From the NCBI GenBank assembly GCA_036489885.1, contig DASXEW010000003.1:1178001-1242000 (forward strand): a DNA stretch of 64,000 nucleotides, read 5' to 3'. The stretch comes from Candidatus Baltobacteraceae bacterium (lineage in GTDB: Bacteria; Vulcanimicrobiota; Vulcanimicrobiia; Vulcanimicrobiales; Vulcanimicrobiaceae). The notes beneath the pieces are model-generated. The model was not told the DNA's origin. It worked only from the letters and a program-made list of their open reading frames with translations, and made no database searches. Made by a program: the position numbers and the translations under genes. Of this stretch, positions 38,061-63,391 are shown piece by piece. The number at the start of each line of letters is the position of its first letter. Within the stretch, counting starts at the first letter, position 1.

Positions 38061-38083
38061 ACAATCGCCGCGAAGTGCGCGGC

Positions 38084-39406
38084 ATGTTGAATCGGCGAGT
38101 TTTTATCGGCGCGACGGCGTCTGCAATCGCGGTCACGGGCGCGCCCGCGTTTTCCTTAGAAGAAAAACTAACGATCGGTATGGGCGGCATCGGACCGAGC
38201 CGGTTCCATCCATCGTTCGTCAAAGACGTCGGCTTACTGACCGATCTCAACAGTACGAATCAAGGCGCTCCGTACTGGAACCTTGACACGTACATCACTC
38301 CGGTCTCGGAATTCTATATTCGTAACGCGTTTCCAACGCCGCGTCCCGAGCTCGACAAGCGTGTCGATCCGCGCTTCTGGAAATTGAAGATTCACGGCGA
38401 CGCCGTCGAGCGCGAGATGACGATCTCGTACGAAGATCTGCTGAAGATGCCGTCACGTTCGATGATGTCCGTGATGCAATGCACCGGCAACGGTCGCACG
38501 CTGTTCTGGGAACAGGAAGACATGCTCAGCGATCCCACCAAGGTGACCGGCAACGGCTGGGGACTTGGTGGCGTCGGAATGGGCGAGTGGGAATACGTAC
38601 CGATGAGCTACATTCTCGATCTCGTCGGACTCAAGCCGAATGCCAAAGCGTGTTTGTTTTGGTCCGGCGTCGACGGCAAGACGCCGAATACAGAATCCGA
38701 CACCGGCAGGCCGATTCCGATAAGCGAGCTGCACGATCGTCCGAACGAGATCGGTCTCGCGTTCAAGCTCAACGGCATGCCGTTGCCGGCCGATCACGGA
38801 GCACCCGTGCGCGCGTTTGTGCCCGGATGGTGTGGTGGTGCGTCGACAAAATGGCTCACTGAGATCAAAATTGCGTCGCACGATTTTTGGGTGCGCCTGA
38901 ATACGACGGATCACACGCTGATTGGCCCCGATTATCCGCCGCCCGTTGCCGCGCCAAACGATGAATTCCGGTTCATCCGGCCGGATCAATTGCTCGGACA
39001 GCCCGTCACGTGGCAGATGGGGCGCTCGTTACTCGTCCTCCCGCTTACGCTGCGCAAATCGCCGGACATCCCCGAAAACTATCCGCTCGCGCGCGGTGAG
39101 CGGCCCGTGATGAAAGCCGGGCCGCAAACATTGCGCGGCTACGCATGGGCGCCGAACGCAGGCGTGCGGCAAGTCGACGTCCGCATCAACGGCGGCAGTT
39201 GGCAATCGACACGCCTCACCGACGTGCAGCCGAACCGCTATAGTTGGACGCGTTTCGAGTTTGCGTTCAATCCGGCGCCCGGCGACTATGTCATCGAAAC
39301 GCGCACCACGGATCGCAAAGGAAACATGCAGCCGGCGAGCGTGCCGTTCAACAAGGGCGGCTACAATTTCTTCGCGATCCCGAAGTTCGATATTCGTTTT
39401 ACCTGA
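38084..39406 (+). CDS. Tat-exported sulfite oxidase-family molybdoenzyme
   Basis: 440 residues from ATG 38084; a GTG 9 bases upstream is possible. The twin-arginine signal NRRVFIGATASAIAV is followed by a molybdopterin domain with the Mo-ligating cysteine in SVMQCTGNGR, then a C-terminal Ig-like Mo-co dimerisation domain (TLRGYAWAPNAGVRQVDVRINGGSW, in parts). It resembles SoxC/sulfite dehydrogenase and related oxidoreductases; the true substrate is uncertain. No cytochrome partner gene adjoins. Followed three bases later by the formamidase gene. Confidence 0.85.
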   Translation: MLNRRVFIGATASAIAVTGAPAFSLEEKLTIGMGGIGPSRFHPSFVKDVGLLTDLNSTNQGAPYWNLDTYITPVSEFYIRNAFPTPRPELDKRVDPRFWKLKIHGDAVEREMTISYEDLLKMPSRSMMSVMQCTGNGRTLFWEQEDMLSDPTKVTGNGWGLGGVGMGEWEYVPMSYILDLVGLKPNAKACLFWSGVDGKTPNTESDTGRPIPISELHDRPNEIGLAFKLNGMPLPADHGAPVRAFVPGWCGGASTKWLTEIKIASHDFWVRLNTTDHTLIGPDYPPPVAAPNDEFRFIRPDQLLGQPVTWQMGRSLLVLPLTLRKSPDIPENYPLARGERPVMKAGPQTLRGYAWAPNAGVRQVDVRINGGSWQSTRLTDVQPNRYSWTRFEFAFNPAPGDYVIETRTTDRKGNMQPASVPFNKGGYNFFAIPKFDIRFT

Positions 39407-42178: not shown

Positions 42179-43657
42179 ATGCAGACAGCTTACGCCGTCC
42201 GCTTCAAACGCTGGGACTGGGATTACTTTCTGCGCGAGCGCAAGACGGTGCTCGAGCTGTGGCCGACCGGAGCCGAGATTGCGTCGGAAGACGCGCTCAA
42301 GCGCGCCCTCGAGTACCACAAGCAGCAGCCGTGGTACAAGTTCGCATCACTGCGCAACGCCAAGGCCGAGGAAGAAGAGCGTATCCAGATCACGCCGCAA
42401 GTCGGCCACGCGCTCGTCGACCACACGATCAAGCACATCCAGTGCTCGGAAGACCTTAAGCCCGATCGTTGGTACGTGCTCACGGATACATACAGCCGCA
42501 AGAACTTGTTCGATAAGGCGCAGGACGCGGTCGAGCGCTCGAAGCGCGACGGCTTCTCGTACCTGAACGGCTATCCGCCCGCGATCCACGGCGTGGCCGG
42601 TGCGCGTGCCATCAACGAGTCGACGAAAGCAGCGGTCGGCACCGACAACAACGACGAGGACGCGCGCTTCAATTGGGAGATTTTGCTGGCCGGCGGCTTT
42701 ACGTGGGGGACGATCAAGAGCGTCGAGCAGCTGCTCCAGCATTCGCGCGACTATCCGATCGACAAGATGATCCACAACCAGCAATACATGGACCGGCTCT
42801 CCGCATTCTTCACCGAGAACGGCGTGCCGATCTTACGCCGCGCATCGGCGAATCTGCCCGGTTGGGATTCGCTCGGATTCAAGGTGCTGGTCTCGCTGAT
42901 CGAAGTGCTGCTCGCCGCCGAACAAGGCCTCAAATATATCGACCTCAGCCTCGGCATCGGAATGAATCTCGTGCAGGACGTGGCTGCGATTCAATCGCTC
43001 AAGAAACTGGCGCGCGAATATCTCGACAAAGCCGGACACCAGGACGTCAAGATTTATTCGTGGACCTACTTCTTTTTGGGCGATTGGCCGCTGGTTCGCG
43101 GCCAGATGAACGCGCAGCTCGCGATGAACGCAACCGTTTCGGCACTCGGCGGATGCAACGGCATGTTCATCAAGTCGCCGGATGAATCGACGACGACGCC
43201 GACCGGAGCCGGCTTCCGCGAAGCAGTCGAGCTGTGCGGACAAATCGCGCGGCTGGTTGCGGGACAGCGCTTGCCGGACGGCGACGACGTTAAGCTGGAG
43301 CGCGAGATGCTCGAGCTCGAAGTCCGCACCTCACTCGATGCGCTGCTGAATATGGGCGACGGCGATCTTGCGCTCGGTTCGTGTTATGGAATCGAGAGCG
43401 GCGTGCTCGACACGATGTTCTCGCCGTATCGCAAGCTGCGCGGCAAGGTGAAGGTCGTGCGCGACAACCGCGGTGCGCTGCGCTACTTGGATCACGGCGA
43501 CATTCCGTTGCCGCAGCCGGTTATCGACTACCATCGCTCGCGCATCGCGGAGCGCTCGAAGAAAGAAGGCAAGGACGCCGATCTCAGCTGGGTCATTCGT
43601 GAAGCAACGTGGGCGTCGCGACCGCTCGCAGAAGAAGCCGCGGAACGGAGTTATTAG
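42179..43657 (+). CDS. Glutamate mutase E-like catalytic subunit, divergent copy 1
   Basis: 492 residues, GAGGGG ribosome site. Aligns almost without gaps to methylaspartate mutase epsilon (WPTG near 29, DTYSRKN, YLNGYP, QQYMDRL, LGIGMNLVQDVAAIQSL, then LGDWP). Compared with Clostridium cochlearium GlmE as I recall it, Arg100 is kept (R107), but Arg66 is Gln74, Arg149 is Asp156, Glu171 is Thr178, and Tyr177/Tyr181 are Gln/His. The amino-acid-binding site is therefore lost while the B12-facing TIM barrel remains. Probably a B12 carbon-skeleton mutase, or derived enzyme, for another substrate. Followed 2 bases later by its S subunit. Confidence 0.85.
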   Translation: MQTAYAVRFKRWDWDYFLRERKTVLELWPTGAEIASEDALKRALEYHKQQPWYKFASLRNAKAEEEERIQITPQVGHALVDHTIKHIQCSEDLKPDRWYVLTDTYSRKNLFDKAQDAVERSKRDGFSYLNGYPPAIHGVAGARAINESTKAAVGTDNNDEDARFNWEILLAGGFTWGTIKSVEQLLQHSRDYPIDKMIHNQQYMDRLSAFFTENGVPILRRASANLPGWDSLGFKVLVSLIEVLLAAEQGLKYIDLSLGIGMNLVQDVAAIQSLKKLAREYLDKAGHQDVKIYSWTYFFLGDWPLVRGQMNAQLAMNATVSALGGCNGMFIKSPDESTTTPTGAGFREAVELCGQIARLVAGQRLPDGDDVKLEREMLELEVRTSLDALLNMGDGDLALGSCYGIESGVLDTMFSPYRKLRGKVKVVRDNRGALRYLDHGDIPLPQPVIDYHRSRIAERSKKEGKDADLSWVIREATWASRPLAEEAAERSY

Positions 43658-43659
43658 AA

Positions 43660-44079
43660 ATGGAATCGCGTCCTCGCGTCGTGCTCGGAACGATCGGACA
43701 CGACGCACACATCGTCGGCAGTTCCGTGTTGCGGTACGCGCTCGAAGGAGCCGGTCTTGAACCGGTCTTTCTCGGCGCGCTCGTGCAGCCGCAAGAATTC
43801 ATCGATGCAGCCAAAGAAACGGCGGCGTCCGCGATCTGGGTTTCCTCGCTCTACGGAATGGGCCGCATCGATTGCGAAGGCTTTCGCGAGAAGTGCATCG
43901 AGGCCGGCATGGACGACATCATCCTTTATATAGGCGGGATTCTCGTGACCGACCCCGAGCAGTGGGAGGAAACCGAAAAGCTTTTCAAATCGTTCGGCTT
44001 TAACCGCGTCTACCCGCCTCAAACAAAACCCGAGACCGCGCTCGCCGATCTGCGTAACGATCTCGGAATTCGGGCGTGA
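43660..44079 (+). CDS. Glutamate mutase S-like B12-binding subunit, copy 1
   Basis: 139 residues. Rossmann-like cobalamin domain with the base-off ligand motif D-A-H-I-V-G (D15, H17, G20), SSLYGMGRIDCEGFREKC and the GGILV loop. It matches GlmS over its whole length, so adenosylcobalamin binding is expected. It pairs with the E-like subunit encoded just upstream. The next gene begins at its stop (GTGA). Confidence 0.92.
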   Translation: MESRPRVVLGTIGHDAHIVGSSVLRYALEGAGLEPVFLGALVQPQEFIDAAKETAASAIWVSSLYGMGRIDCEGFREKCIEAGMDDIILYIGGILVTDPEQWEETEKLFKSFGFNRVYPPQTKPETALADLRNDLGIRA

Positions 44080-44558
44080 TCGCAACCCGCAAATCCGTCG
44101 AAGCCGAGCGGACGGCCGCACTTGAAGCCGAACGCGCCGGAAATATTCGTCAAGCCCTGCTGGGTGCGTCCCGGGCGCTCAACCGTCTCGTCGTTGCAGC
44201 GCTCCAAAAGCGCGGACACAAGAAATTCCGCTCGACGCACCTCGGCCTTACGTCGAATATCGATTTGCACGGTACGCGGCTGAACGTTCTCGCGGCGCGC
44301 GCCAACATGACGAAACAGGCCATGTGGGAGCTTGCGAATGATCTCGAAAAATGCGGCTACGTCAAGCGTCGCATCGACGAAAACGATCGTCGTAACCGGA
44401 TCATCGCATTCACCGATGCCGGATGGAAGCTGAAGATGGACAACATCGAGGTCTTTCGCGAGATCGAATCCGAGCTGCAGAGCAAGGTCGGTAGAACGCC
44501 ATACGAGGCGCTGCGCGGGACGCTGCGCGCGATCGCAGCTTTAGGAGAAGAGGAATGA
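44076..44558 (+). CDS. MarR-type winged-helix regulator of the locus
   Basis: 160 residues from a GTG overlapping the previous stop. After a charged helical N-terminus, the wHTH core is LHGTRLNVLAARANMTKQAMWELANDLEKCGYVKRRIDENDRRNRIIAFTDAGWKL (seen in parts). Its place inside the operon makes it the likely regulator of the ATTCGTCA-N7-TGACRAAT sites, though binding is not shown. The stop overlaps the ATG of the binding-protein gene. Confidence 0.8.
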   Translation: MIATRKSVEAERTAALEAERAGNIRQALLGASRALNRLVVAALQKRGHKKFRSTHLGLTSNIDLHGTRLNVLAARANMTKQAMWELANDLEKCGYVKRRIDENDRRNRIIAFTDAGWKLKMDNIEVFREIESELQSKVGRTPYEALRGTLRAIAALGEEE

Positions 44559-45532
44559 AGGCGTTGAAAGTCTCTTGCGTCCTCGCATGTCTGGCTCTGA
44601 TACTTGCGCTGCATCCGGCGCGGCCGCTAGCAGCCGAGACAGCTCCCGCGCACGTCGCGATTGCATATCAGCCCGGCCTCGGTTATGCGCCGCTGCTGAT
44701 CATCAAGCAGAACAAATGGATCGAGAAAGATTTTCCCGGCACAACGGTTGAGTGGCGCGAGCTCTCGAATGGCGCAACGATCCGCGACGGCATCATCTCC
44801 AACACGCTCCAAGTCGGAGTCGTCGGCACTGCGCCGTGGATCGTGGGTTGGGCGCGTGGCGTGCCGTGGAAGCTTCTCGCTTGCGCATCGAACATGGACA
44901 TGTGGCTCAACGTGATGGACCCGAACATCAAGAGCCTCAAAGATCTCAAAGCCGGCGACCAAATCGCGCTGCCTGCGCCGGATTCGATTCAAGCCTTTGC
45001 GCTACGCAAAGGTGCGCAAGAGATTCTCGGCAACGCGCACGCGCTCGATACCAACATGGTGGCGATGGCGCATCCGCTGGGATTGCAAGCGCTCGTCTCC
45101 CATCAAGTCGTGGGACACTTGACCGCGCCTCCGTTTGAGTACGAAGAGATCGACCGGGGCGCGCACACGATTTTCAACACGCACGACGTCATGGGCGACA
45201 CCTGCTTCACGGCCGTTACGATGCCGACGGCATTCGCAAGTCAGTATCCGGCGTTCACGGCGAAACTGCTCGGATACATGCAGCAGGCCGACAAGATGCT
45301 GAAATCGAGTCCGGCCGACGCCGCGAAATACATCGCGGACGCCGAGAGCAAGCCGGATCTTGCGGCGCAGTACAGAGCCTGGCTCGGACGTCCCGGCATC
45401 GCTTACACCGTTACGCCCAGTGGTTTCTTGAAGTATGCGACGTTCATGAAGCAGATCGGAAGCATCGACAAGGTTCCATCCGATATCAAGGAACTCGAGT
45501 TTCCCGCTCTTGCGCCGCTCGGCGGGAGCTGA
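44555..45532 (+). CDS. Taurine/nitrate/thiamine-type (NMT1/SsuA) ABC binding protein
   Basis: 325 residues with a Sec signal (ending PLAAETA). Type II periplasmic-binding fold: VAIAYQPGLGYAPLLIIKQNKWIEKDFPG, then GATIRDGIISNTLQVGVVGTAPWIVGWARG, as in TauA/SsuA-like proteins. Ligand unknown; could be a sulfonate, carboxylate or precursor compound. No permease or ATPase is adjacent, but a SsuC/TauC-type permease gene lies at the right edge of the window. ATGA overlap with the regulator gene. Confidence 0.85.
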   Translation: MKALKVSCVLACLALILALHPARPLAAETAPAHVAIAYQPGLGYAPLLIIKQNKWIEKDFPGTTVEWRELSNGATIRDGIISNTLQVGVVGTAPWIVGWARGVPWKLLACASNMDMWLNVMDPNIKSLKDLKAGDQIALPAPDSIQAFALRKGAQEILGNAHALDTNMVAMAHPLGLQALVSHQVVGHLTAPPFEYEEIDRGAHTIFNTHDVMGDTCFTAVTMPTAFASQYPAFTAKLLGYMQQADKMLKSSPADAAKYIADAESKPDLAAQYRAWLGRPGIAYTVTPSGFLKYATFMKQIGSIDKVPSDIKELEFPALAPLGGS

Positions 45533-45545
45533 TAGGAGAAGCACA

Positions 45546-46943
45546 ATGGCAGTCGCGACATCACAGAAGCATGCGGTGACCAACCCCTCGACGCTCGAGC
45601 ACGTCGGTGAAGTCGAGTTTTCGTCGGTCGGCGACGTCGCGCGCAAAGTCGTTCGTGCGAACGAAGCGTTTGCGAAATGGCGCAGCACGCCGTTCACCGA
45701 GCGCGCAGCTATCCTGCGCAAGACGGCGGAGTCGCTGCGCAAGTTCAAATCCGAAATCGCCGCGACGCTGACGCGCGAACAAGGCAAGCCGGTCAAGGAA
45801 GCCGCGATCGAAGTCGAGCGCACCGCGGACACCTTCGATCTCTATGCCGGCGACGACATGGGTGCGCTTGTCGACTCGGTTGAGCTGCCCGGCAAAACCG
45901 CGCGCGTCGTGCGCCGTCCGCTGGGCGCGTGCGCCGCAATCGTGCCGTGGAATTTTCCACTGACGCTGATGGCGAACAAGCTCGTTCCCGCGCTTGCGAC
46001 CGGCAACACGGTTGTCGTCAAGCCTGCGCCGACAACGCCGCTCGCAGCGCAGCGCTGCATCGAACTGCTGTATGAAGCCGGATTGCCCGAAGGCGTGGTC
46101 GAGATCGTCATCGGTGGCGCCGACGTCGGCGCGGCGTTGATCGAGCATCCATTGATTCGCAAAGTTTCGTTCACGGGCTCGACCACGACCGGCAAAGCGA
46201 TCATGGCGCTGGCGGCCAAAGGCCTCAAGCGTCTCACGCTCGAGCTGGGCGGCAACGACGCGATGATTGTCTGTGAAGACGCCGACATCGTCGGTGCGGC
46301 GCGTGCGGCCGCGGTCGGCCGATTCTTCAACGCCGGTCAAGCCTGCATCGCAACGAAGCGCATCTACGTTCATCGCTCGAAATACGACGAGTTCGTCGAG
46401 CGTGTCAGCGAGCGCGCCGCGAAGCTTCCCGTCGGCGACGGCTTCGATTCGAACGTGCGCATGGGACCGCTGCATTCGCAACCGCAGCGCGAAAGCGTCG
46501 AAGGTTTCGTGCGCGACGCGCTCGAGCACGGCGCAAAGGCCACATCGGGCGGCAAGCGCTCCGATAAAGGCAAAGGCTACTTCTTCGAGCCGACCGTGCT
46601 CGTGGGCGTTCGCGACGACGCGCGTCTCATTCGCGAGGAATGCTTCGGCCCGGTGCTTCCGGTGATGGCGTTCGATTCGATCGACGAGGCCTTCGCGCGC
46701 GCGAATGCGACCGTGTTCGGTCTGGGCTCATCGATCTGGACGAACGATGCTGCCTTGCAAGAGCGCGCGGTGCGCGAACTGGACGCAGGCTACACGTGGA
46801 TCAACGACATCGCGACGGACTACGACCGGTTGCCGTTCGGCGGCGTAAAGGAGAGCGGTTTTGGTAAAGAACGTGGCACCGAAGTTCTCAATGAATACCT
46901 CGAGCTCAAATCCGTCGTCGCAGGGGCGGCCGGACATGGCTGA
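45546..46943 (+). CDS. NAD(P)-dependent aldehyde dehydrogenase
   Basis: 465 residues from an ATG with an AGGAG site. Motifs: VPWNFPLTL, cofactor site FTGSTTTGKAIM, general-base Glu in LELGGNDAM, nucleophile Cys in NAGQACIA, and CFGPVLPVM. Closest in type to succinate-semialdehyde and related dehydrogenases. It would oxidise an aldehyde of the pathway to an acid. It overlaps the ComA-like gene by 8 bases. Confidence 0.92.
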   Translation: MAVATSQKHAVTNPSTLEHVGEVEFSSVGDVARKVVRANEAFAKWRSTPFTERAAILRKTAESLRKFKSEIAATLTREQGKPVKEAAIEVERTADTFDLYAGDDMGALVDSVELPGKTARVVRRPLGACAAIVPWNFPLTLMANKLVPALATGNTVVVKPAPTTPLAAQRCIELLYEAGLPEGVVEIVIGGADVGAALIEHPLIRKVSFTGSTTTGKAIMALAAKGLKRLTLELGGNDAMIVCEDADIVGAARAAAVGRFFNAGQACIATKRIYVHRSKYDEFVERVSERAAKLPVGDGFDSNVRMGPLHSQPQRESVEGFVRDALEHGAKATSGGKRSDKGKGYFFEPTVLVGVRDDARLIREECFGPVLPVMAFDSIDEAFARANATVFGLGSSIWTNDAALQERAVRELDAGYTWINDIATDYDRLPFGGVKESGFGKERGTEVLNEYLELKSVVAGAAGHG

Positions 46944-47751
46944 TCCCGCCTTCGGCTTCCTGAAAATCGGCCGTTATTCTTCGCAAAAGCCGCGCACGAC
47001 GGCGATGACGATCTGCATCGACGGCATGGACAGCGGCTTCATCTCGAACGCGCAGGTCACGTCGCTCGGTGATTTCGTAGCACCCTACATCGACTACGCG
47101 AAGCTGGGCTGGATGATCCCGCGCCTGACCTCGAAGAAGATGCTGGTCGAGAAGATCGCCGCATATCACGCGCAAAACATTCGCGTCTTCTTCGGCGGCA
47201 TGGCGATGGAAGTCGCGCTGATCCAGGGCAAAGCCGCCGAATACGTCGAGGCCTGCGCCGAGTACGGCGCCGACGCGATGGAAATCTCGGCCAGCGCCTC
47301 GTTCATCTCGGCGCGCGTTGCCGACGAATCGATTCGCCGCGCGAAATCTGCGGGACTCAAGGCCTTTCTCGAAATCGGCCGCAAAGGCGAAAACGCTGCG
47401 AATCCGACCGTCGACGACGTACGGCGGCAATTGGACAGAATGCTCGTGGCCGGCGGCGACGGACTCATCATCGAATCGGAACGCCTTGAATCAATGCATC
47501 ACGGCGGAACGCTCGAGGGTTTTCTCGAGGGTTGCGGTGATCTCGATCTGGCCAAGCTGATCTTCGAGCTGCCGTACGGCTTGCCGTTTCCGCAGCTGCA
47601 GCCGATTGCAACCCGGCTCTTCTCGGTGCTGGGCGGCGAGATCAACGTCGCGAACGTCGAGTTCGCGCACGTCATGGGGATCGCAACGATTCGAACCGGC
47701 ACGTGCTTCGGCGATCTCTTCGGCCTCGTTCCAACGGAGGTCACAGCGTGA
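46936..47751 (+). CDS. Phosphosulfolactate synthase (ComA)-like TIM-barrel protein
   Basis: 271 residues. ComA family marks: an N-terminal KPRTTAMTICIDGM, YIDYAKLGWMIPRLTSKKMLVEKIAAYHAQNIRVFFGG, ECAEYGADAMEIS-type strand and a C-terminal NVANVEFAHVMGIATIR (seen in parts). ComA joins sulfite to phosphoenolpyruvate in coenzyme M synthesis, but relatives in plants and bacteria (HSA32-like) have other or unknown roles. In this locus it may do a C-S or C-C bond reaction on the pathway acid. GTGA overlap with the next gene. Confidence 0.75.
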   Translation: MADPAFGFLKIGRYSSQKPRTTAMTICIDGMDSGFISNAQVTSLGDFVAPYIDYAKLGWMIPRLTSKKMLVEKIAAYHAQNIRVFFGGMAMEVALIQGKAAEYVEACAEYGADAMEISASASFISARVADESIRRAKSAGLKAFLEIGRKGENAANPTVDDVRRQLDRMLVAGGDGLIIESERLESMHHGGTLEGFLEGCGDLDLAKLIFELPYGLPFPQLQPIATRLFSVLGGEINVANVEFAHVMGIATIRTGTCFGDLFGLVPTEVTA

Positions 47752-48095
47752 CCGAGACGCTCGAATCCGGACGGCATTTACGCATCGGCGTCCTTGCCTT
47801 TTGGCTTTCGCGCGTCGCGGCCATCGCGTTGCTCGTACTGCTCCCGCTCAAGCTGTACTCGGGCTGGGTGCGCATCGGAAAAGTTCCCGGGCCACCGGGA
47901 CTGGCCGCACTGCATTCGGACGCAGTGCTCGATACGTTGCTCTTGCTCGCGCTCTTGACGCACGCGGCGCTTGGCGTTCGCGTGCTGTTGCTCGAGTTCG
48001 GCCTGAGCAAGAACGGCGACCGGCTCTTTTCGACCGTTGCCGTCTGCGCGGTCGTTTTGTTTGCGGCCGCGATTTACATAACGATCGCAGGTTAG
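47748..48095 (+). CDS. Fumarate reductase/succinate dehydrogenase-type membrane anchor
   Basis: 115 residues with three hydrophobic helices (FWLSRVAAIALLVLLPLKLYSG, LDTLLLLALLTHAALGVRVLLLEF, VAVCAVVLFAAAIYI). His in LLTHAALGVRVLL has the position of a heme b ligand in SdhC/FrdC proteins. It would anchor the FrdA/FrdB-like subunits encoded next and pass electrons to quinone. GTG start overlaps the ComA-like stop. Confidence 0.75.
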   Translation: MTETLESGRHLRIGVLAFWLSRVAAIALLVLLPLKLYSGWVRIGKVPGPPGLAALHSDAVLDTLLLLALLTHAALGVRVLLLEFGLSKNGDRLFSTVAVCAVVLFAAAIYITIAG

Positions 48096-48096
48096 C

Positions 48097-48762
48097 ATGG
48101 CGCACGCACGCATCGATCGGTTCGAAGCCGGACGGCGCTGGACGCAAGACTACGAGCTCGAGCTGCCTCCTCAAAGCACCGTCCTCGATTTGCTCTTCGA
48201 GATCCAGCAGCGCCTGGATCAAACGCTCTCGTTTCGCTATTCGTGCCGCAACTGGATGTGCGGAAGCTGCGGTATGCTCGTGAACGGCCGCGAGCAGCTT
48301 GCCTGCCGCACGCGTCTGGCCGATCTTGATGCGCCCGCCGTGCAGATCGCGCCGCTGCGCAATCTTCCGGTCGTCAAAGATCTGATCGTGGATCTCGCGC
48401 CGTTCTTCGAGAAGTGGAACGCGGTCGGCGTCGCCTTCCCGGATCAAAGCCAGAAGCCGATTGCGAATCCCCAGAAGACGCAGCAAACGATCGATGCGCA
48501 TTCCGACTGCATTACGTGCGGCTTGTGCTACTCCGCGTGCGACGTGCTCAGTCACGCCTCCGATTTTCTCGGTCCCGCCGCGCTCAACCGCGCATATACA
48601 CTGCAGCTCGATGCGCGCGACGTCGCGCACCAGAAGCGCGGCGCGACGATTGCTGCCGACGGCGGCGTCTTCCGCTGTCACTCGATGGGACAGTGCACGA
48701 ACGTTTGTCCCAAAGGCCTCGATCCGCTCGCCGCGATTGCGGCGCTCAAGCGAGGCGCGTGA
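48097..48762 (+). CDS. Fumarate reductase/succinate dehydrogenase-type iron-sulfur subunit
   Basis: 221 residues. The [2Fe-2S] ligands are in YSCRNWMCGSCGMLVN plus a later Cys (QLACRT); the [4Fe-4S]/[3Fe-4S] ligands are in CITCGLCYSAC and CHSMGQCTNVCPKGLDP. The usual CP after the first ferredoxin motif is CD here. It carries electrons between the flavoprotein and the membrane anchor. Stop and next start overlap (TGATG). Confidence 0.92.
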   Translation: MAHARIDRFEAGRRWTQDYELELPPQSTVLDLLFEIQQRLDQTLSFRYSCRNWMCGSCGMLVNGREQLACRTRLADLDAPAVQIAPLRNLPVVKDLIVDLAPFFEKWNAVGVAFPDQSQKPIANPQKTQQTIDAHSDCITCGLCYSACDVLSHASDFLGPAALNRAYTLQLDARDVAHQKRGATIAADGGVFRCHSMGQCTNVCPKGLDPLAAIAALKRGA

Positions 48763-50432
48763 TGGAAGAGCTCGAGACCGACATTCTCGTTCTCGGCAGC
48801 GGCGGCGCCGGCCTGATGGCCGCGCTCTACGCGCTGGATACGAATCCGAAGCTGAACGTCACGCTCGCGACCAAAGGCCTTTTCGGGAAGAGCGGCTGCA
48901 CGCGCATGGTCCAAGGCGGCTACAACGTCGTCCTCAGTCCGAACGATTCGACCGAGCGGCACTTTCAAGATACGATGCTTGGCGGACATTGGCTCAACAA
49001 TCACATCTTGGCGCGCACGCTGGTCGAAGATGCGCCGGTCGTCGTCCACGAGATGTGGGAAAAGGCCGGCGTGCGTTTCGCGCGCGACAAAGACGGCAAT
49101 CTGCACCAGAAAGGTCTGGCCGGACAAACCTTCGATCGCACGGTGCATCACGGCGATCTCACCGGCATCGAGATCGTCTCGCGCCTCTCGGAACAAGTCC
49201 GCGCGCGCGGAACGCGAATTCTCGAAGAGTGCCGTGCCGTCGATCTGCTCGTGGAAGACGGCGAAGTCTTCGGCGCCGTGCTTTTGCCGGCGCGCACCGG
49301 CGAGTTCATTGCCGTTCGCGCCAAGATCACGGTGCTTGCAACCGGCGGCTCGGCGCCGATCTTCAGTGTCTCGTCGGCCTCGCTCGAAAAGTGCGGCGAC
49401 GGCTACGCGCTTGCGTACCGCGCAGGCGCGACCTTGATGGACATGGAGATGAGCCAGTTTCATCCGACCGGACTGGTTGCACCCGGTTCGCGCTTCAACG
49501 GCAGCGTCATCGCTGAAGAGCTGCGCGCTGCCGGCGGCCATCTCTATAACTCCGAGAACGAACGCTTCATGGGCAAGTACAATCCGCGTTTTGAAAAAGC
49601 GACGCGCGACGAAGTCTCGCGTGGATGCTATTTCGAAATTGCGGCCGGACGCGGAACACCGAACGGCGGCGTGTGGCTCGACGTTTCGCATCTGGGTGCA
49701 AAAGCGGTCGAAGAGCTTTTCCCCGGCATGCTCGAGCGCTGCTTTTTGATCGGGCGTGATTTGCGTAAGGAGCCGATCGAAGTTTGCCCGACCTCGCACT
49801 TCGAGATGGGCGGCGTGCGCATCGATCGCGATTGTCATTCGGATTTGCCGGGCTTGCTCGTCGCGGGCGAAGACTCGGGCGGCGTTCACGGCGCAAACCG
49901 GCTGGGTGGAAACGGCGTTGCCGATTCAACCGTGTACGGCCGGCGCGCAGGTTTGCGCGCGGCGAATACCGCCCTGGAACGCCGCATGAAGAAGGTCGAT
50001 CCGTCGCGTTCAATTTCGGCGGCGCTTTCGCCATGGGAACGCACCGGCGGCGAGCAGCCGCAGGCGCTGCACGCCGAGTTTCGCGACGTGATGTGGACGA
50101 AGGTCGGCGTGGTTCGTGATGCCACGGCAATGAGCGAGGCAATCGACGCATTGCAAGCGTTGCAACAACGGATCGACCATGTATCAGTGACGGGTTCGCG
50201 TGCATACAATCTGACGTGGCAATCCGCGCTCGACGTCCGCAACGCCGTGACCGTCGGTCAAATGGTGGCCCAGTGTGCGCTCATCCGGCAAGAAAGCCGG
50301 GGCGCGCACTACCGGAGCGATTTTTCGAGTGAAGACCCGTCGTGGACGAAGAATCTCACGGTGCGGCTTGAAAGCGGTCAGATGCGTTTTGGCGAGCAAG
50401 AAGTCGTTCGGGAGCCGGCAGCCGCGCGATGA
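48762..50432 (+). CDS. Fumarate reductase/succinate dehydrogenase-type flavoprotein
   Basis: 556 residues. FAD dinucleotide motif LGSGGAGL (residues 11-18), MEMSQFHPTGL, HFEMGGV and GANRLGGNG are present, with an Arg-rich ATRDEVSRG segment at the active site. Where SdhA/FrdA carry the covalent-FAD His (SHT), this has Cys46 (SGCT), so FAD is probably non-covalent. It is expected to oxidise a succinate-like, possibly alkyl-substituted, dicarboxylate or reduce the matching enoate. Part of the FrdCBA-like operon. Confidence 0.9.
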   Translation: MEELETDILVLGSGGAGLMAALYALDTNPKLNVTLATKGLFGKSGCTRMVQGGYNVVLSPNDSTERHFQDTMLGGHWLNNHILARTLVEDAPVVVHEMWEKAGVRFARDKDGNLHQKGLAGQTFDRTVHHGDLTGIEIVSRLSEQVRARGTRILEECRAVDLLVEDGEVFGAVLLPARTGEFIAVRAKITVLATGGSAPIFSVSSASLEKCGDGYALAYRAGATLMDMEMSQFHPTGLVAPGSRFNGSVIAEELRAAGGHLYNSENERFMGKYNPRFEKATRDEVSRGCYFEIAAGRGTPNGGVWLDVSHLGAKAVEELFPGMLERCFLIGRDLRKEPIEVCPTSHFEMGGVRIDRDCHSDLPGLLVAGEDSGGVHGANRLGGNGVADSTVYGRRAGLRAANTALERRMKKVDPSRSISAALSPWERTGGEQPQALHAEFRDVMWTKVGVVRDATAMSEAIDALQALQQRIDHVSVTGSRAYNLTWQSALDVRNAVTVGQMVAQCALIRQESRGAHYRSDFSSEDPSWTKNLTVRLESGQMRFGEQEVVREPAAAR

Positions 50433-51949
50433 ACCGCGCTGCGGGCGTCTCGCCGCTTAGCGGCGTCCGCTATTGGGCGCGTCTCGACCCGTCGCGCGAG
50501 GCGATCGTCGACGGCGGCGTGCGGCTAACATACGCGGACCTGCTCGCGCGAGTTGACGCGACCGCTGCGTACTTTCAATCACGCGGCGCGCGACGCGGAA
50601 GCATCATCGGGATGTCGCTCCGCAACACGCTCGATGCGCTCGTCATTCCGCTCGCGGCAGCCGCGCTCGGCGCGCAAATCTCGCCGGTCAACTTCCGGCT
50701 GAAGGCGCGCGAGCTCGGCAACATCGCTGCGCACCTGAACGCAACGGTCTTCGTGTACGGCGACGACCTTGCCGATGAGATGCAGCGCGCAAACCTGAAC
50801 ACGAAGCCCGCGTTCGTTGCGCACGCCGACTTCGAGGTTGAGCTGCAGGCGTTCGAAGGCAAGCGCGCGGGCGACGGCTTTGCGACGCCCGCCGATGCCT
50901 TCACGCTGATGTGGACGTCAGGGACGCGCGGTCTGCCGAAGCCGTGCCGCGGCTCGCTCGCTGCGCGCATGAATTGGATCGCAACCTTTCCGTTTGTGTA
51001 CGGCGTGCGTCCGCACGACAACTATCTGGCCGTGATGCCGGTCGTGCACTCTGCCGGGATGACGTTTGCGCTCGCCTATCTGAACTTCGGCGGCACGGTG
51101 TTTCTGTGCGCGCATTTCGATGCGTGCGAGACCTGGCGCCTGATTCGCGAGGAGAAGATCGACGCGGGCATGTTCGTGCCGTCGATGCTGCAGATGTTGA
51201 TCGAGGAGGATCCGTCTCCCGAAACTCCGGTGCCCGAAACGTTCCGCACGATGATCACGGCAGGTTCGCGCATCCGTCCCGCACTGCACGCGCAAGTCCT
51301 CGAGCGTTTTCCGAACCGGCTTTTCACGTATTACGGCTCGACCGAAAGTCCGAGCATGACCGTCTTACGTCCGCACGAGCAAGCCGCGTATCCCGAGTCG
51401 GTCGGCCGTCCGTATTTCGGCGTCGAGCTGCAAGTGCGCAATCCCCGCATGCTGCCGGATTATCCCGTGCGCGTCGGCGACATCGTTGCGCGCAATCCGT
51501 ATGCGATGGATTCGTACGCCGTCGAAGGCGTCCCGATCCCGGTTTCGCGCGACGGCTGGATCGAAACCGGCGACATCGGCTATTTCAACGAGGACGGACT
51601 CTTGCACGTGTTCGGACGTGCAGCCGACGTCATCATCAGCGGCGGTCTCAACATCAGCTTGCCTGAAGTCGAGCGCGTCATCGCTGCGCACCCACTAGTG
51701 AAAGAGGTGGCCGTCGTCGGCATCGAGGACGAACGCTGGGGCGAGCTGCCCGCAGCCGCGATCGTCCCGATCGACGCGCGCGATGCCAACCGCATCATCG
51801 AAGCCATCGATGCCCATTGCCGCAGCGAGCTGGCAGGCTACAAGCGCCCGCGACACATCATCACGCTCGCGGAGCTGCCGCGCACGGCCTCAGGCAAAGC
51901 TTCGGTTTCCGAGATTCGCACGCTAATCGCCGTACGGGTGCAAGCATGA
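50429..51949 (+). CDS. AMP-forming acyl-CoA ligase
   Basis: 506 residues. Phosphate loop MWTSGTRGLPKPCRG, YYGSTESPS (A5), WIETGDIGYFNEDG (A7), FGRAADVIISGGLNISLPEVE (A8) and the catalytic Lys in PRTASGKAS (A10). It activates a carboxylic acid to its CoA thioester. The substrate is likely the pathway acid or a product of it. ATGA overlaps on both sides place it firmly in the operon. Confidence 0.92.
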   Translation: MNRAAGVSPLSGVRYWARLDPSREAIVDGGVRLTYADLLARVDATAAYFQSRGARRGSIIGMSLRNTLDALVIPLAAAALGAQISPVNFRLKARELGNIAAHLNATVFVYGDDLADEMQRANLNTKPAFVAHADFEVELQAFEGKRAGDGFATPADAFTLMWTSGTRGLPKPCRGSLAARMNWIATFPFVYGVRPHDNYLAVMPVVHSAGMTFALAYLNFGGTVFLCAHFDACETWRLIREEKIDAGMFVPSMLQMLIEEDPSPETPVPETFRTMITAGSRIRPALHAQVLERFPNRLFTYYGSTESPSMTVLRPHEQAAYPESVGRPYFGVELQVRNPRMLPDYPVRVGDIVARNPYAMDSYAVEGVPIPVSRDGWIETGDIGYFNEDGLLHVFGRAADVIISGGLNISLPEVERVIAAHPLVKEVAVVGIEDERWGELPAAAIVPIDARDANRIIEAIDAHCRSELAGYKRPRHIITLAELPRTASGKASVSEIRTLIAVRVQA

Positions 51950-52680
51950 GCGAGCACGTCACGTACGCAACGCGCGAAAAAACTGCAATTCTCACCCTGA
52001 ACCGCGCGGACAAGATGAATGCGCTCACGCCGGAGATGCGCGGCGCGCTGCTCGAGTATCTTGCGCAAGCCGAGACCGATGCAAATGTCGCGGCGATCAT
52101 CTTGCGTGCCGAGGGCGAGCGCGCGTTTTGCGCCGGCGCAGACTTGAGCGAGCTGAAAACGCGCACCTGGAAAACGGAGATGAGCGACGCCGCCAAGCTG
52201 CGGCGCGCATTGCCGCGCACGCTCGAAGAGATGGGCAAGCCCGTCATTGCAGCACTGCACGGTTACGTTCTCGGCGCGGGCCTCGAGGTTGCGATGGCGT
52301 GCACGATTCGTGTCGCGGCCGATACGGCGACCTTCGGCTTACCGGAGCTCAAGCACGGCGTCGTCCCGGGCAGCGGCGGCACGCAGCGCTTGCCGCGTCT
52401 CGTCGGAATGAGCTTTGCGATGGACATGATGCTCACGGGACGCTCGCTCGACGCGCAAACCGCGCTCAGCGTCGGGCTCGTGAGCCGGGTCGTACCCGCC
52501 GCGCGATTGCTCGATGAAGCGCACGCGGTTGCCGAAACGATTGCGAAGCTCGATCCGTTTGCGGTGAAAGCCGCCAAAGCCGCGACGCTGCGTTCGTTCC
52601 GCCGCGACCTCGACTCCGATATCGAAGAAGAACGCCGCTGGTTCGCGCTTTGTCTCGTGGAGAAAGAGTCGCAGAAGTGA
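51946..52680 (+). CDS. Enoyl-CoA hydratase/isomerase (crotonase family)
   Basis: 244 residues. Oxyanion loop AFCAGADLSEL, and both hydratase glutamates appear to be kept: GYVLGAGLEVAMAC and FGLPELKHGVVPGSGGTQRLPRLVG. This supports true hydration of an enoyl-CoA rather than only isomerisation. It probably acts after the ligase on an unsaturated acyl-CoA. ATGA overlap with the ligase and GTGA with the next gene. Confidence 0.92.
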   Translation: MSEHVTYATREKTAILTLNRADKMNALTPEMRGALLEYLAQAETDANVAAIILRAEGERAFCAGADLSELKTRTWKTEMSDAAKLRRALPRTLEEMGKPVIAALHGYVLGAGLEVAMACTIRVAADTATFGLPELKHGVVPGSGGTQRLPRLVGMSFAMDMMLTGRSLDAQTALSVGLVSRVVPAARLLDEAHAVAETIAKLDPFAVKAAKAATLRSFRRDLDSDIEEERRWFALCLVEKESQK

Positions 52681-53759
52681 TCGCGGTCGATCGGATCGAG
52701 CAACTCCGGGCGTGGCGTCTCTCGTTGCCGCTCACGCGGCCCTATCATCTCTCGCTCGGTGCGATCGAGGCGTTCGATACGATTCTCATCGAAGCGAGCG
52801 ACGGACGCCACTCAGGAGTTGGGGAAGCGACGTATCTCACCGGGTACACCGACGAAACGGTCGACGCGGCTTGGGAAAGCGTCAAAGAATTATCTGCGCT
52901 CGTCGCCGGCAAGACCGCTACTGCAGCGCGCGCCCGTCTGGGAGATCTGCTTTCGAGCGCACCGTTCACGGTGACGGCGTTCGTTACGGCGCTCGACATG
53001 CTCGAAGAGAAGCCGCTCCTGCGCGTGGACGAGCTCACGCGCGTGCCGCTGCTCACGCTGCTCCAAGCCGAGACCGGCGCCGAGATCGAAACGGAGATCG
53101 CGGCTGCGATCGAGCGCGGCTTTTCAACCCTGAAAATCAAAGTTGGTTTCGACGCCGATGTGGATCTGGGCCGCGTCGCGACGATTCAGCGCATCAATCG
53201 TGGACGCTGCGCATTGCGTCTCGACGCCAATCAAGGTTATACGCGCGAGGATGCGATTCGGTTTTCCACGTCGCTCGATCCCGATGCGATCGAGCTTTTC
53301 GAACAGCCCTGCGATAAAAGCGATTGGGACTCTGCCGTCGCGGTTGCGCGCGTTTCGAACGTCCCGATGATGCTCGACGAATCGATCTACGGTGCTGCCG
53401 ACATCGAACGCGTCGCGCAGCTCGATGCGGCGCGCTACGTCAAGCTCAAGCTCATGAAAGCCGGCTCGGTCGACACCTTAGCGCGCGATCTCGCGAAGAT
53501 ACGCGCGCTGGGTATGGAGCCCGTGCTCGGCAACGGTGTTGCCTGCGACGTGAGCAACTGGATGGAAGCCTGCGTCGCGCGCGGCCTCGTAACGAACGCT
53601 TTGGAATCGAACGGATTCCTCAAACCTCGCCGTTCGTATTTGAAAACGCCGCTACTGTTCGAGCGCGGTGCGATCGTCTTGGAACCGAACTGGACACCCC
53701 AGCTCGACATGGATGCCGTTCAAGCGCAAGTCCAGGCACATACGGAATGCCGGGCCTAG
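52677..53759 (+). CDS. Enolase-superfamily enzyme (MLE/dipeptide-epimerase-like)
   Basis: 360 residues from a GTG overlapping the hydratase stop. Capping domain, then barrel with LKIKVGF (K-x-K), metal ligands in [17 protein letters not shown] and MLDES, and the opposite base in KLKLMKAG. This is the muconate-lactonising subgroup, near dipeptide epimerases and o-succinylbenzoate synthase, not the methylaspartate ammonia-lyase group that partners glutamate mutase in the classical pathway. Possible reactions are racemisation, cycloisomerisation or dehydration. Confidence 0.85.
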
Positions 53760-54178: not shown

Positions 54179-55581
54179 ACGCGCACGCTGCTCTCTTGAT
54201 CGATTTCGGCAGCACGTACACGAAGCTGCGCGCCGTCGATCTCGACGAGGCTCGCCTGATCGGAACCGGTCAAGGTCCCTCGACCGTGCGCACCGACATT
54301 CGCATCGGAATGCGCGCGGCGCTGAGCGACCTCGAGGCAAAGCTGGGCGCACTTCCGCGCTTTCGCTACCGCCTTGCGTCGAGCAGTGCGGCGGGCGGCT
54401 TGCGTATGGTGACGATCGGTCTCGTCCGCGAGCTGACCGTCGAAGCCGCGCGCCAAGCCGCGCTCGGCGCCGGCGCAAAGCTGGTCGGAACGTTCACCAA
54501 CAAGCTCACGCGCAGCGACGTCGAGGCGATTGACGCGCTTGCGCCCGACATCATTCTTCTCGCCGGCGGAACCGACGGCGGGAACACCGAGGTCGTCGTC
54601 CACAACGCGAAGATGCTGGCGCAGATCAAGACCGATGCGCCGATCGTCTACGCCGGTAATCGTGTCGCAGCCGACGATGCGCGCGAGCTTCTCGCCGGGC
54701 GCAGCTTGACGGTCGCCGACAACGTGATGCCCGAGCTCGGGAAGCTTGCATCGGAATCGGCGCGCGATGCGATTCGCCAAATTTTCATTGCGCGCATCGT
54801 GCACGCCAAGGGAATCGATCGCGCGCAAGAGATGTTCGACGACGTTTTGATGCCGACGCCCGCCGCCGTCATGGAAGGCGCGCGATTGCTCGCAGACGGC
54901 GCCGGCGGCGAACCGGGACTCGGCGAGCTGCTCGTCGTCGATCCCGGCGGCGCGACGACCGACGTTCACTCGATTGCAAGTGGCGAATCGAGCAGCGGCG
55001 CGATTCAGAAAGGCATGCCCGAGCCGCGCATCAAGCGCACCGTCGAAGGCGATCTCGGCATGCGTCACACTGCGGCCTCAGTCGTTGAAGCAGCGGGCGT
55101 CGAGCGGATTGCGCAGCAGGCAAACATTTCCGTTGCCGGCGTCGGCGCAATGCTCGAGCGCATCGCCGAGAACGTCGAGATGATTCCGCAAACGCCGGCG
55201 GAGCATGCCTTCGACCGCGCGTTACTTGCAACGGCGATTGAAATTGCGGTACGGCGGCACGCAGGAACGGTTGAGACCGTGTACACCACGATGGGACCTG
55301 CGACGGTTCAGTACGGCAAGGATCTCACACGTATCGAGTTCGTCGTTGCGACCGGCGGAGCGCCGATCCATCTCGGCGATCACGATGCGCTGCTCGAAGC
55401 CATGCGTTCGGCGCCTTCGGATCCACGCTCGCTGCGTCCGCGCGCACCGCATCTGTACCTTGACCGCGACTACATCTTATACGCGATCGGTTTGCTCGCC
55501 AGCGTCGATCCGCAAACGGCGCTACGCCTTGCGCGGCGTTCGATCACGCCGGCCGATCGCGCGAAAGAAGTCGCGCAGTGA
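54175..55581 (+). CDS. Glutamate mutase L-like reactivating factor
   Basis: 468 residues of the ASKHA (actin-like ATPase) fold: [17 protein letters not shown] (phosphate 1), [30 protein letters not shown] (phosphate 2), VVATGGAP (adenosine). GlmL/MutL proteins act as chaperones exchanging damaged cobalamin in glutamate mutase. There is only one L gene for the two E/S pairs. ATGA and GTGA overlaps with its neighbours. Confidence 0.9.
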
Positions 55582-57059
55582 GCACCGTCGCGCAAACACT
55601 GCTCTCGCAAGAACGGATCGCGGACGACGTGTTCGCCGCGATGCGGCGCGAAAATCTCGCGCGCTGGCCGACCGGCGCGGGCGTCGATATCGACGAGGCA
55701 GTCGCGTACCACAAGGGCATGCCCGACCACCGGCGCTTGGCCGGCGTTTTGCGGCGCGCCGACGCGGAGAAGCGAACCCTAACTCAGCCGCGCGGCGGTT
55801 TCGGTACCTTCGAGCTGCAGAAGAACCTCATGCAGATGCTCGATCGCGAGGGGCTCGCCGATATCGTCCCGACGACGACCGACAGCTATACGCGCAACGA
55901 ACATTTTGAACAGGCCCAAGAAGGCGTCAACGAATCCGAACGGCTCGGACGTTCGATGCTCAACGGCTATCCGATGGTGAACTACGGCGTGCCGACCACG
56001 CGCAAGCTGATCGAAGCCATCGAAAAACCGGCCGTCATGCTGACCGGGACGTCGATGCCAAAACTCACCGGCGAGATCGGATTTGCTGCAGGCTACAACG
56101 GCTACCTCGGCTCCGGAATCGCGTACACGGTTTCGTACACGAAAGAGCTTTCCGTTGAGCAAGGCATTCGCAATTATCAGTATCTCGACCGCCTCGCGGC
56201 CGAATATCTCGCGCACGGCGTCGAGATCCACCGCCGCCAGCCCGGATTTTTGACGGGAACGAACATCCCGCCGTCGATTGCGATCGTCGTTTGTATTCTC
56301 GACATGCTGCTCGCGATGGCGCAGGGCGTTCGCAACTACGGCCTCGAGCTCGGGCAGACGCTGCATCTCATTCAAGATGCGGCGGCACTCGCGACCTGTC
56401 GCGAGCTGTGCGAGGAATATGCGCGCAAAGCCGGCCACGCGGACACGTTCACGCCAGTAACATCGTTGCATTGGATGGGCGCGTGGCCGCACGATGAAGC
56501 GCAAGCTGCCGCAATCGTCTCGTACGGCGGAACGCTGGCTGCGATCGGCGGCGCGGTCAGCGTGACGACCAAGAGCGTCCACGAAGCCTTCGGGATTCCA
56601 ACGCCGGAAGCAAACTGCGAGGCTTTGCGGATGACGCGCATGGCGATCTATCTCGCGCGCAAGATCCGGCTCGAGGGGCTTCCCGAATACGAGTTCGAAC
56701 GCGACCTGATTCGGCGCGAGGTGCGGCCGATCGTCGATCGGGTGCTCGAGCTAGGCGAAGGCGACGTCGCCAGTGGAACCGTTCGCGCGCTCGAGGCGGG
56801 GGTTCTCGACATCCCCTGGTCCCCGAACCGGTTCGTTCGCAGTCGCGTCATGCCGGCGCGTGACGTCGACGGCTACTTGCGTATTCTGGATGCCGCGGCG
56901 ATGCCGTTTCCGAAAGACGTGCTCGCGGTGCACGAAGAGCGTCTGCGAAAACGTGCCGAGGCCGAGCACGTCGCATATGGACGCGACCTCGCGGTGTCGA
57001 GCGTCTACGAGCTCAGCGAGCCGATCGCGAAACTGCTTCCGTCCGAACGTAATCGTTAA
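55578..57059 (+). CDS. Glutamate mutase E-like catalytic subunit, copy 2
   Basis: 493 residues from a GTG overlapping the L stop. Full-length match to methylaspartate mutase epsilon (RWPTG, TQPRGGF, DSYTRNEHFEQA, SMLNGYPMVNYG, LHWMGAWPHDEAQA, GVLDIPWSPNR). Relative to C. cochlearium GlmE as recalled, Arg66 (R72), Arg100 (R106), Tyr177 and Tyr181 are kept, but Arg149 is Leu155 and Glu171, which holds the substrate amino group, is Leu177. Suggests a mutase for a substrate without the amino group. A bare dicarboxylate is possible; unproven. Confidence 0.88.
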   Translation: MSTVAQTLLSQERIADDVFAAMRRENLARWPTGAGVDIDEAVAYHKGMPDHRRLAGVLRRADAEKRTLTQPRGGFGTFELQKNLMQMLDREGLADIVPTTTDSYTRNEHFEQAQEGVNESERLGRSMLNGYPMVNYGVPTTRKLIEAIEKPAVMLTGTSMPKLTGEIGFAAGYNGYLGSGIAYTVSYTKELSVEQGIRNYQYLDRLAAEYLAHGVEIHRRQPGFLTGTNIPPSIAIVVCILDMLLAMAQGVRNYGLELGQTLHLIQDAAALATCRELCEEYARKAGHADTFTPVTSLHWMGAWPHDEAQAAAIVSYGGTLAAIGGAVSVTTKSVHEAFGIPTPEANCEALRMTRMAIYLARKIRLEGLPEYEFERDLIRREVRPIVDRVLELGEGDVASGTVRALEAGVLDIPWSPNRFVRSRVMPARDVDGYLRILDAAAMPFPKDVLAVHEERLRKRAEAEHVAYGRDLAVSSVYELSEPIAKLLPSERNR

Positions 57060-57095: not shown

Positions 57096-57118
57096 ATTCG
57101 TCATGGAGCATGACAAAT
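57096..57118. promoter_or_regulatory. Regulon operator, copy 2, before tctB
   Basis: ATTCGTCA (57096-57103), 7 bases, TGACAAAT (57111-57118). Same arms and spacing as the site at 42.1 kb. It touches the assigned tctB ATG, so the true start of tctB may be slightly later or the site acts on initiation. The flanking bases (GATTCGTCATGG and AAATGCTGC) are also shared with copy 3. Confidence 0.65.
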
Positions 57119-57650: not shown

Positions 57651-57656
57651 GCTCGC

Positions 57657-63389: not shown

Positions 63390-63391
63390 GT

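Follow-up and report, generated by a model that had tools for sequence, protein, structure and literature searches.

ComA adds sulfite to phosphoenolpyruvate and is an enzyme of coenzyme M (CoM) synthesis in methanogens. Its Pfam family, PF02679, also has bacterial members, among them XcbB1 of the multi-gene CoM pathway of Xanthobacter Py2. The HSA32 family is otherwise known from plant heat memory. PMC3162933 deals with both HSA32 and phosphosulfolactate synthase. Here, we analyzed a 64,000-nucleotide stretch of a Candidatus Baltobacteraceae bacterium genome (contig DASXEW010000003.1, positions 1,178,001 to 1,242,000), referred to below as the window, with a focus on a plus-strand gene at 46936–47751 that encodes a non-canonical, ComA-like TIM-barrel enzyme. 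The open reading frame starts with ATG and runs for 271 residues without an internal stop. Its product matches PF02679 with 135 bits (E = 3.2e-39; gathering cut-off 25.2), the sole such match in the 3.48 Mb genome. The 5' end of the gene overlaps the stop of an aldehyde dehydrogenase (ALDH) gene (46943) by 8 bases, and its 3' end overlaps the GTG (47748) of an SdhC-like membrane subunit by 4 bases, with FrdB and FrdA genes downstream. The initial annotation had read this as a ComA-family gene in a vitamin B12 and coenzyme A (CoA) catabolic operon, embedded with overlaps between an ALDH and a Frd-like complex; the family match, the two overlaps and the scores of MutS, GlmL and a second MutE, all above their cut-offs, bear this out. 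We propose, with a probability of about one half, that the gene encodes not a coenzyme M synthase but a catabolic PF02679 enzyme that activates a carboxylate and, acting on a small di- or tricarboxylate, adds a group by conjugate addition or removes one by elimination.

Judged by sequence, the window protein does not appear to be a phosphosulfolactate synthase in the strict sense, because its equivalog score is below the cut-off, 12 of 34 invariant ComA columns are changed, and ComB is absent. It scores 109.9 bits on TIGR03849, the NCBIfam equivalog for phosphosulfolactate synthase, against a curated cut-off of 280. The invariant columns were taken from a canonical alignment of 42 rows (methanogens, Bacillota, Bacteroidota, Actinomycetota, XcbB1, Legionella, and a few others). 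Twenty columns are kept both in the window protein and in its relative from an Actinomycetota metagenome-assembled genome (MAG), 12 differ in both proteins, and the other 2 differ in the window protein only. In M. jannaschii numbering, the kept columns are D40, K43, K60, G74, G75, E79, E103, S105, E133, G135, K137, G161, E168, E205, P207, G220, N227, and R240, plus two N-terminal columns. The changed ones are T48, T76, G107, R170, E171, G173, G177, A206, Q212, L243, R244, and T247. The placement of R170/E171 and R244/T247 depends on the alignment: an indel of one residue could explain the R170/E171 swap, and the columns near the C terminus differ from one alignment to another. Residues were compared by conservation, and none was assigned a catalytic role. 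The window protein retains ComA's core of acidic residues and lysines, and other invariant ComA residues are lost.

An AlphaFold2 model of the window protein, built on a 38-row alignment (predicted local distance difference test score 90.4; predicted template modeling score 0.89), predicts the ComA fold. VIA-align placed PDB entry 1qwg at the top (Z score 29.8, root mean square deviation 2.0 Å over 243 residues), then 9cm1 and 1u83; the first row from outside the family had a Z score of 14.9. Other TIM-barrel families, including dehydroquinase and pyruvate carboxylase, appear as general fold matches.

Further genes of CoM synthesis were sought around the window. ComB (PF04029) had no match in the window's own genome (as a control, it was present in 7 of 14 named genomes); no genome-wide search was made for comC, comD, or comE. 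XcbC, a bacterial CoM enzyme, gave a best score of 150.3 bits in the genome against a cut-off of 575, and within the window there was no match to XcbC, XcbD, or XcbE. The initial annotation had described a gene without comB and had doubted the CoM reaction. The absence of PF04029 agrees with the former, and the window protein, which lies outside any CoM gene set, probably does not catalyze the CoM reaction. The combination that would have spoken for CoM synthesis, a place in the methanogen ComA clade plus com genes elsewhere in the genome, was not seen.

The sole close relative found is a protein on the Actinomycetota MAG contig, 53–55% identical to the window protein. It was found by a genome-contig scan with a two-row alignment; the same scan with the window protein alone returned no relative, nor did a scan of viral sequences. 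Within the window's phylum, 5 of 149 genomes match, with no closer relative than the window protein itself and the other four weak at 27–34%. Among 396 Actinomycetota genomes, 36 match at all and one holds a close relative; among the 24 genomes of the MAG's class, 9 match and again one is close. On the MAG contig, the locus is present in two copies, one inverted relative to the other, and an assembly frameshift interrupts the gene; the locus was counted once, with the two frames of the gene joined for the tree.

In a careful tree of 44 rows, the window and MAG proteins form a pair (support 100/100) inside a clade of 17 rows (support 97/94). The other rows of the 97/94 clade are two from Natrinema halophilum, one each from Paracoccus, Bradyrhizobium, Arthrobacter, Chelativorans, and a genome of the window's family (G023), and eight that we call HSA32-like. 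This clade comprises PF02679 proteins not tied to CoM, the HSA32-like group included. Two earlier trees, which lacked the intermediate sequences, were less clear: a quick 69-row tree put the pair next to Natrinema (support 90), and a careful 41-row tree put it beside the HSA32-like rows without starred support. We take the 44-row tree as the best of the three and the other two as a caution. Placement relative to methanogen ComA, the check called for at the outset, gave a mixed result. The pair lies outside the methanogen clade in the 44-row tree, whereas approximately unbiased (AU) tests on the 41-row tree firmly rejected none of the joins to methanogens (p = 0.056), to methanogens plus lactobacilli (p = 0.137), or to XcbB1 (p = 0.234).

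The HSA32-like label follows a motif taken as typical of plant HSA32, and not a comparison with plant sequences. In the 44-row tree, the group forms its own 100/100 clade, with the window and MAG proteins outside it. Furthermore, Lys60 and Lys137 (M. jannaschii numbering) are absent in 12 of 12 HSA32-like rows, and both are present in the window protein. The earlier suggestion of an HSA32-type protein therefore holds as far as the larger 97/94 clade and fails at the level of the group itself. Another very divergent PF02679 group, from Actinomycetota genomes (L102, L103, L106, and L121), has a TSPFDPGY motif and keeps R170 and both lysines; three of its loci were examined and showed no marker neighbor.

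We surveyed the neighbors of 121 ComA-like genes with useful flanks, within 8 kb and at E values up to 1e-12, leaving out a palindromic duplicate (L016). The loci were gathered by similarity to ComA-like proteins, not to PrpD, and some are cut by contig ends. MmgE/PrpD was found at 15 of 15 HSA32-like loci, at both Paracoccus/Bradyrhizobium loci, and at 0 of 91 canonical loci. The 15 HSA32-like loci (L011, L013, L014, and L147–L158) come from several phyla, and several are closely related to one another; one match is partial (70 bits), and three of the loci supplied the query proteins themselves. No MmgE/PrpD lies beside the window gene or near the ComA-like genes of both Natrinema copies, Arthrobacter, G023, and Chelativorans. 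In the Actinomycetota MAG, PrpD lies just beyond 8 kb, in a divergent operon. The Natrinema protein also matched 37 plasmid records, and surroundings were read in 12, including Natrinema halophilum, Legionella, Arthrobacter, and Xanthobacter. Plasmid pTAV3 of Paracoccus versutus carries a ComA-like gene, TcuA, an SsuA-type ATP-binding cassette (ABC) transporter, TctABC, and PrpD in one cluster. On a Legionella lytica plasmid (L007, 5856–9484), a protein of ~970 residues with an adenylating-enzyme-like start (by eye) ends in a PF02679-type domain and is followed by a ComB gene, possibly for a sulfonolipid-type pathway.

The MAG locus contains an SsuA-type ABC transporter, the ComA-like gene, a CoA ligase, an ALDH, a CoA transferase, an acyl-CoA dehydrogenase, and PrpD. 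Its proteins are similar to those of the window: 43.5% identity for the binding protein, 48% for the CoA ligase, 54% for ALDH, and 47% for enoyl-CoA hydratase (ECH). Among 72,556 plasmid records, the best identities to the window proteins were 33%, 35%, 51% (Thermus), and 47%, respectively. No Frd was found at the MAG locus. The MAG genome had no match to MutE, and the mutase therefore lies outside the shared core. The MAG also has an ArgH-like lyase that is 46% identical to a lyase of a haloarchaeal sulfonate cluster; since both lyases pass the argH cut-off, this may be ordinary ArgH similarity, and we did not retain it as a link.

The FrdA-like flavoprotein of the operon (48762–50432) belongs to a subfamily that is found on plasmids with genes for sulfite or sulfate disposal. 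Its identity to the plasmid subfamily is 46–54%; the subfamily stands clearly apart from SdhA, FrdA, and NadB, which reach at most 37%. Neighborhoods were fetched for nine of the twelve best records; seven were annotated, and two unannotated ones were checked by tblastn. TauE/SafE, a putative sulfate exporter, or soxC was present in six of the nine (Haloarcula, Natribaculum, two Methylobacterium, M. nodulans, and NT-25), versus neither of two controls at 35–37% identity. Four of these six also have a UxaA-family pair that is presumably SuyAB-type; in NCBIfam, the large subunit has only a weak galactarate dehydratase match. In the Haloarcula cluster, the best match of an Ldh-family protein is L-sulfolactate dehydrogenase, below the cut-off (340 versus 500). 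Fumarase genes occur in seven of the nine neighborhoods, and the window operon has none. PMC12421959 reports, in sulfofucose-grown Paracoccus, a co-induced gene cluster of fumarate/tartrate metabolism with a TauE homolog. On the Natrinema halophilum plasmid, a member of the 97/94 clade adjoins an ALDH gene, with TauE/SafE ~2 kb off and a sulfite oxidase and a sulfate exporter within ~12 kb. This candidate organosulfur cluster (176000–191000) also holds two LLM oxidoreductases, a CoA transferase, MaoC, and an acyl-CoA dehydrogenase. The earlier idea that the enzyme may act on sulfite thus gains indirect support from the FrdA subfamily and from the Natrinema cluster of ComA-like, ALDH, and sulfite genes, while sulfite as the partner is far from certain.

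Members of the 97/94 clade often adjoin PrpD, TcuA, Frd, acyl-CoA dehydrogenase, and carboxylate or sulfonate-type transporters. The four enzymes make or consume α,β-unsaturated di- and tricarboxylates, that is, Michael acceptors or products of β-elimination, and for this reason we infer that the window enzyme would make or break a bond at the β carbon, by conjugate addition or elimination. Like ComA, it would activate a carboxylate through an enolate-type intermediate. The FrdABC complex and the B12 mutase would interconvert its substrate, which may be a small di- or tricarboxylic acid, and the CoA ligase could then route the acid to CoA. In the degradative direction, elimination would be the likeliest step, possibly ComA's C–S chemistry in reverse. 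Of the individual versions, the most likely, held tentatively, is that an imported sulfonated acid loses sulfite. A narrower form, which we consider quite improbable, casts the operon as a methylaspartate pathway adapted to sulfonates. There, MutE1/MutS would rearrange a linear C5 dicarboxylate that carries a sulfonate group, giving a methyl-sulfosuccinate, the ComA-like enzyme would act as a C–S lyase and remove sulfite by reversing the Michael addition of ComA, as methylaspartate ammonia-lyase removes ammonia, and the mesaconate-type product would pass to FrdABC, CoA ligase, and hydratase.

Nearly as likely as a sulfite partner is a sulfur-free alternative, in which the enzyme is a lyase or hydratase that performs C–O or C–C chemistry on a non-sulfonated branched or tricarboxylic acid. 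The PrpD, PrpF, TcuA, and Tct neighbors in the clade point to citrate-like acids, the glutamate mutase, CoA ligase, and hydratase of the operon need no sulfur, and the HSA32-like members have lost two ComA lysines. Such a possible role sits poorly with the sulfite genes near the FrdA subfamily and in the Natrinema cluster, and with the SsuA-type binding proteins of the window, the MAG, and Paracoccus. Several observations also weigh against the catabolic reading that we prefer. To our knowledge, no member of the 97/94 clade has a known substrate or activity, and the clade gained its support only after intermediate sequences were added; the 41-row tree left the placement open. The likeness of ALDH and ECH to those of the MAG was dropped as co-conservation, being hardly above the plasmid background, so that co-conservation rests on the binding protein and ligase only. 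Two of the six sulfite-positive FrdA neighborhoods are Methylobacterium loci with near-identical gene orders, and three of the nine had no sulfite genes (Sulfitobacter S190 by annotation; Cupriavidus P-10 and R. jostii by tblastn). No TauE/SafE, SuyAB-type, or sulfate exporter genes were detected in the window operon. The taurine/sulfonate-type binding protein named in the initial annotation is present (44555–45532; SsuA/NMT1-type, PF13379 46 bits), but it stays below the cut-off of the SsuA family (TIGR01728, 85 versus 163.5 bits). Lastly, a plus-strand molybdopterin protein gene of the sulfite-oxidase family (38075–39406) lies near but apart from the operon and scores 136 bits for both SorT and SoxC, far below cut-offs of 420 and more. 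It matches in 4 of 60 genomes at 1e-20, including its own, the others at 31–33% with no close copy in relatives, and its link to the operon is uncertain.

Two further explanations would bring the gene back to a described family. A true phosphosulfolactate synthase, acquired by horizontal transfer and making CoM or another sulfonated metabolite, would account for the PF02679 membership and fold, and the AU tests do not firmly exclude a union with methanogen ComA or XcbB1. The ArgH-like lyase near the MAG relative would also fit, as this lyase family is used in bacterial CoM clusters too (PMC11507031); however, the MAG lyase, above the argH cut-off, falls far below that of XcbC. With the low equivalog score, the twelve changed columns, the lack of ComB, and the subthreshold XcbC score in the genome with no XcbC/D/E match in the window, we regard this explanation as unlikely. 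Less likely still is membership of the HSA32-type subgroup with an unlinked PrpD protein as partner. The shared larger clade and seven MmgE/PrpD matches elsewhere in the genome would allow it, but the window protein lies outside the 100/100 group, retains the two lysines that the group lacks, and has no PrpD adjoining its gene.

The operon, all on the plus strand, starts at 42179 with a divergent glutamate-mutase E-like subunit (MutE1, 42179–43657; TIGR01503 291 bits, below the cut-off of 390), followed by the B12-binding mutase subunit S (MutS, 43660–44079; TIGR01501 143.6 bits, cut-off 135.8) and a MarR-type regulator (44076–44558). After the binding protein gene comes the ALDH (45510–46943, PF00171 548 bits), whose ATG start is possibly at 45546. 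Downstream of the ComA-like gene lie the SdhC-like membrane anchor (47748–48095; PF01127 27.8 bits, scanned on the longer frame 47703–48095), the FrdB-like iron-sulfur subunit (48097–48762), FrdA, an AMP-forming acid:CoA ligase (50429–51949), an enoyl-CoA hydratase/isomerase (51946–52680, start estimated from the beginning of the domain match), and an enolase-superfamily (MR_MLE) protein (52650–53759) that by Pfam is not methylaspartate ammonia-lyase; none of the latter was seen in the window. Beyond a gap of at most about 430 bases lie the mutase accessory protein GlmL (54190–55581; 570.8 bits, cut-off 475; start estimated from the domain), the second glutamate-mutase E subunit (55578–57059; TIGR01503 437.8 bits), and a tripartite tricarboxylate transporter (TctB, TctA, and TctC, 57117–60148). 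MutS, GlmL, and the second MutE all exceed their NCBIfam equivalog cut-offs, as expected of a glutamate mutase; MutE1 alone does not. MutE matches exceed the Pfam cut-off in 2 of 60 searched genomes, the window's own among the two. Because of this, and because no close ComA-like relative occurs among the 149 phylum genomes, the operon is accessory and probably acquired. GC content is 59–63% throughout, and base composition gives no strong signal of acquisition.

The catabolic island extends beyond the window end, with a second NMT1-type ABC transporter (TauC/SaoP-like permease) from 63392–64000 onward, then HMGL-like/carboxylase, biotin carboxylase, thiolase-like, and NDP-forming CoA ligase genes. 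On the minus strand, a frame at 62238–63647 is broken by a single in-frame TGA and reads LLTGA-TGA-PMCTRTGG around it, a U-x-x-C motif; its upstream part matches GRDB (PF07355, 28 bits). As the genome carries tRNA-Sec (74.8 bits, cut-off 47), the frame probably encodes a selenoprotein. A different genome of the window's order has a glutamate-mutase E match (584 bits) whose frame contains a single TGA.

The name phosphosulfolactate synthase is routinely given to PF02679 proteins that have no part in CoM synthesis, and many such labels are probably wrong. The 97/94 clade offers testable partner genes for its members. PF02679 itself is known; searches of open-licence PMC papers turned up no catabolic, non-CoM clade with such partners. 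No report there linked MmgE with phosphosulfolactate, and the association at 15 of 15 HSA32-like loci is a lead on the chemistry of the HSA32 family, if plant HSA32 belongs there. If the window enzyme does release sulfite, it would be a type of C–S lyase not found in the same papers, and the sulfonate-methylaspartate pathway, if true, would add a new class of C–S lyase and a new B12 mutase substrate.

Compared with known systems, the operon resembles a glutamate mutase (methylaspartate) operon in its MutS, GlmL, and one MutE, all above curated cut-offs, and differs in its second, divergent MutE and its ComA-like and MR_MLE genes. The window protein shares PF02679, the fold (Z scores of 29.8 and 26.2), and the acidic and lysine core with ComA of M. 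jannaschii (1QWG) and YitD of B. subtilis (1U83). However, it is 26–31% identical to them, has the twelve changed columns and a longer FELPYG-FPQL loop, and is encoded in a catabolic setting without CoM genes. XcbB1 is likewise a bacterial PF02679 member in a multi-gene pathway, but at 25% identity to the window protein it retains nearly all of the listed ComA residues, and the XcbC, XcbD, and XcbE that accompany it have no counterpart in the window. The HSA32-like proteins are in the same larger clade and, like the window protein, are not CoM-linked; unlike it, they lack Lys60/Lys137 and adjoin MmgE/PrpD. The Paracoccus versutus pTAV3 cluster has TcuA in place of FrdABC, PrpD in place of a B12 mutase, and a ComA-like protein of another subclade. 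Nevertheless, its ComA-like gene is immediately followed by a flavin carboxylate dehydrogenase and accompanied by SsuA-type ABC and Tct transporters, an arrangement strikingly like the ComA, Frd, SsuA-type protein, and TctABC of the window.

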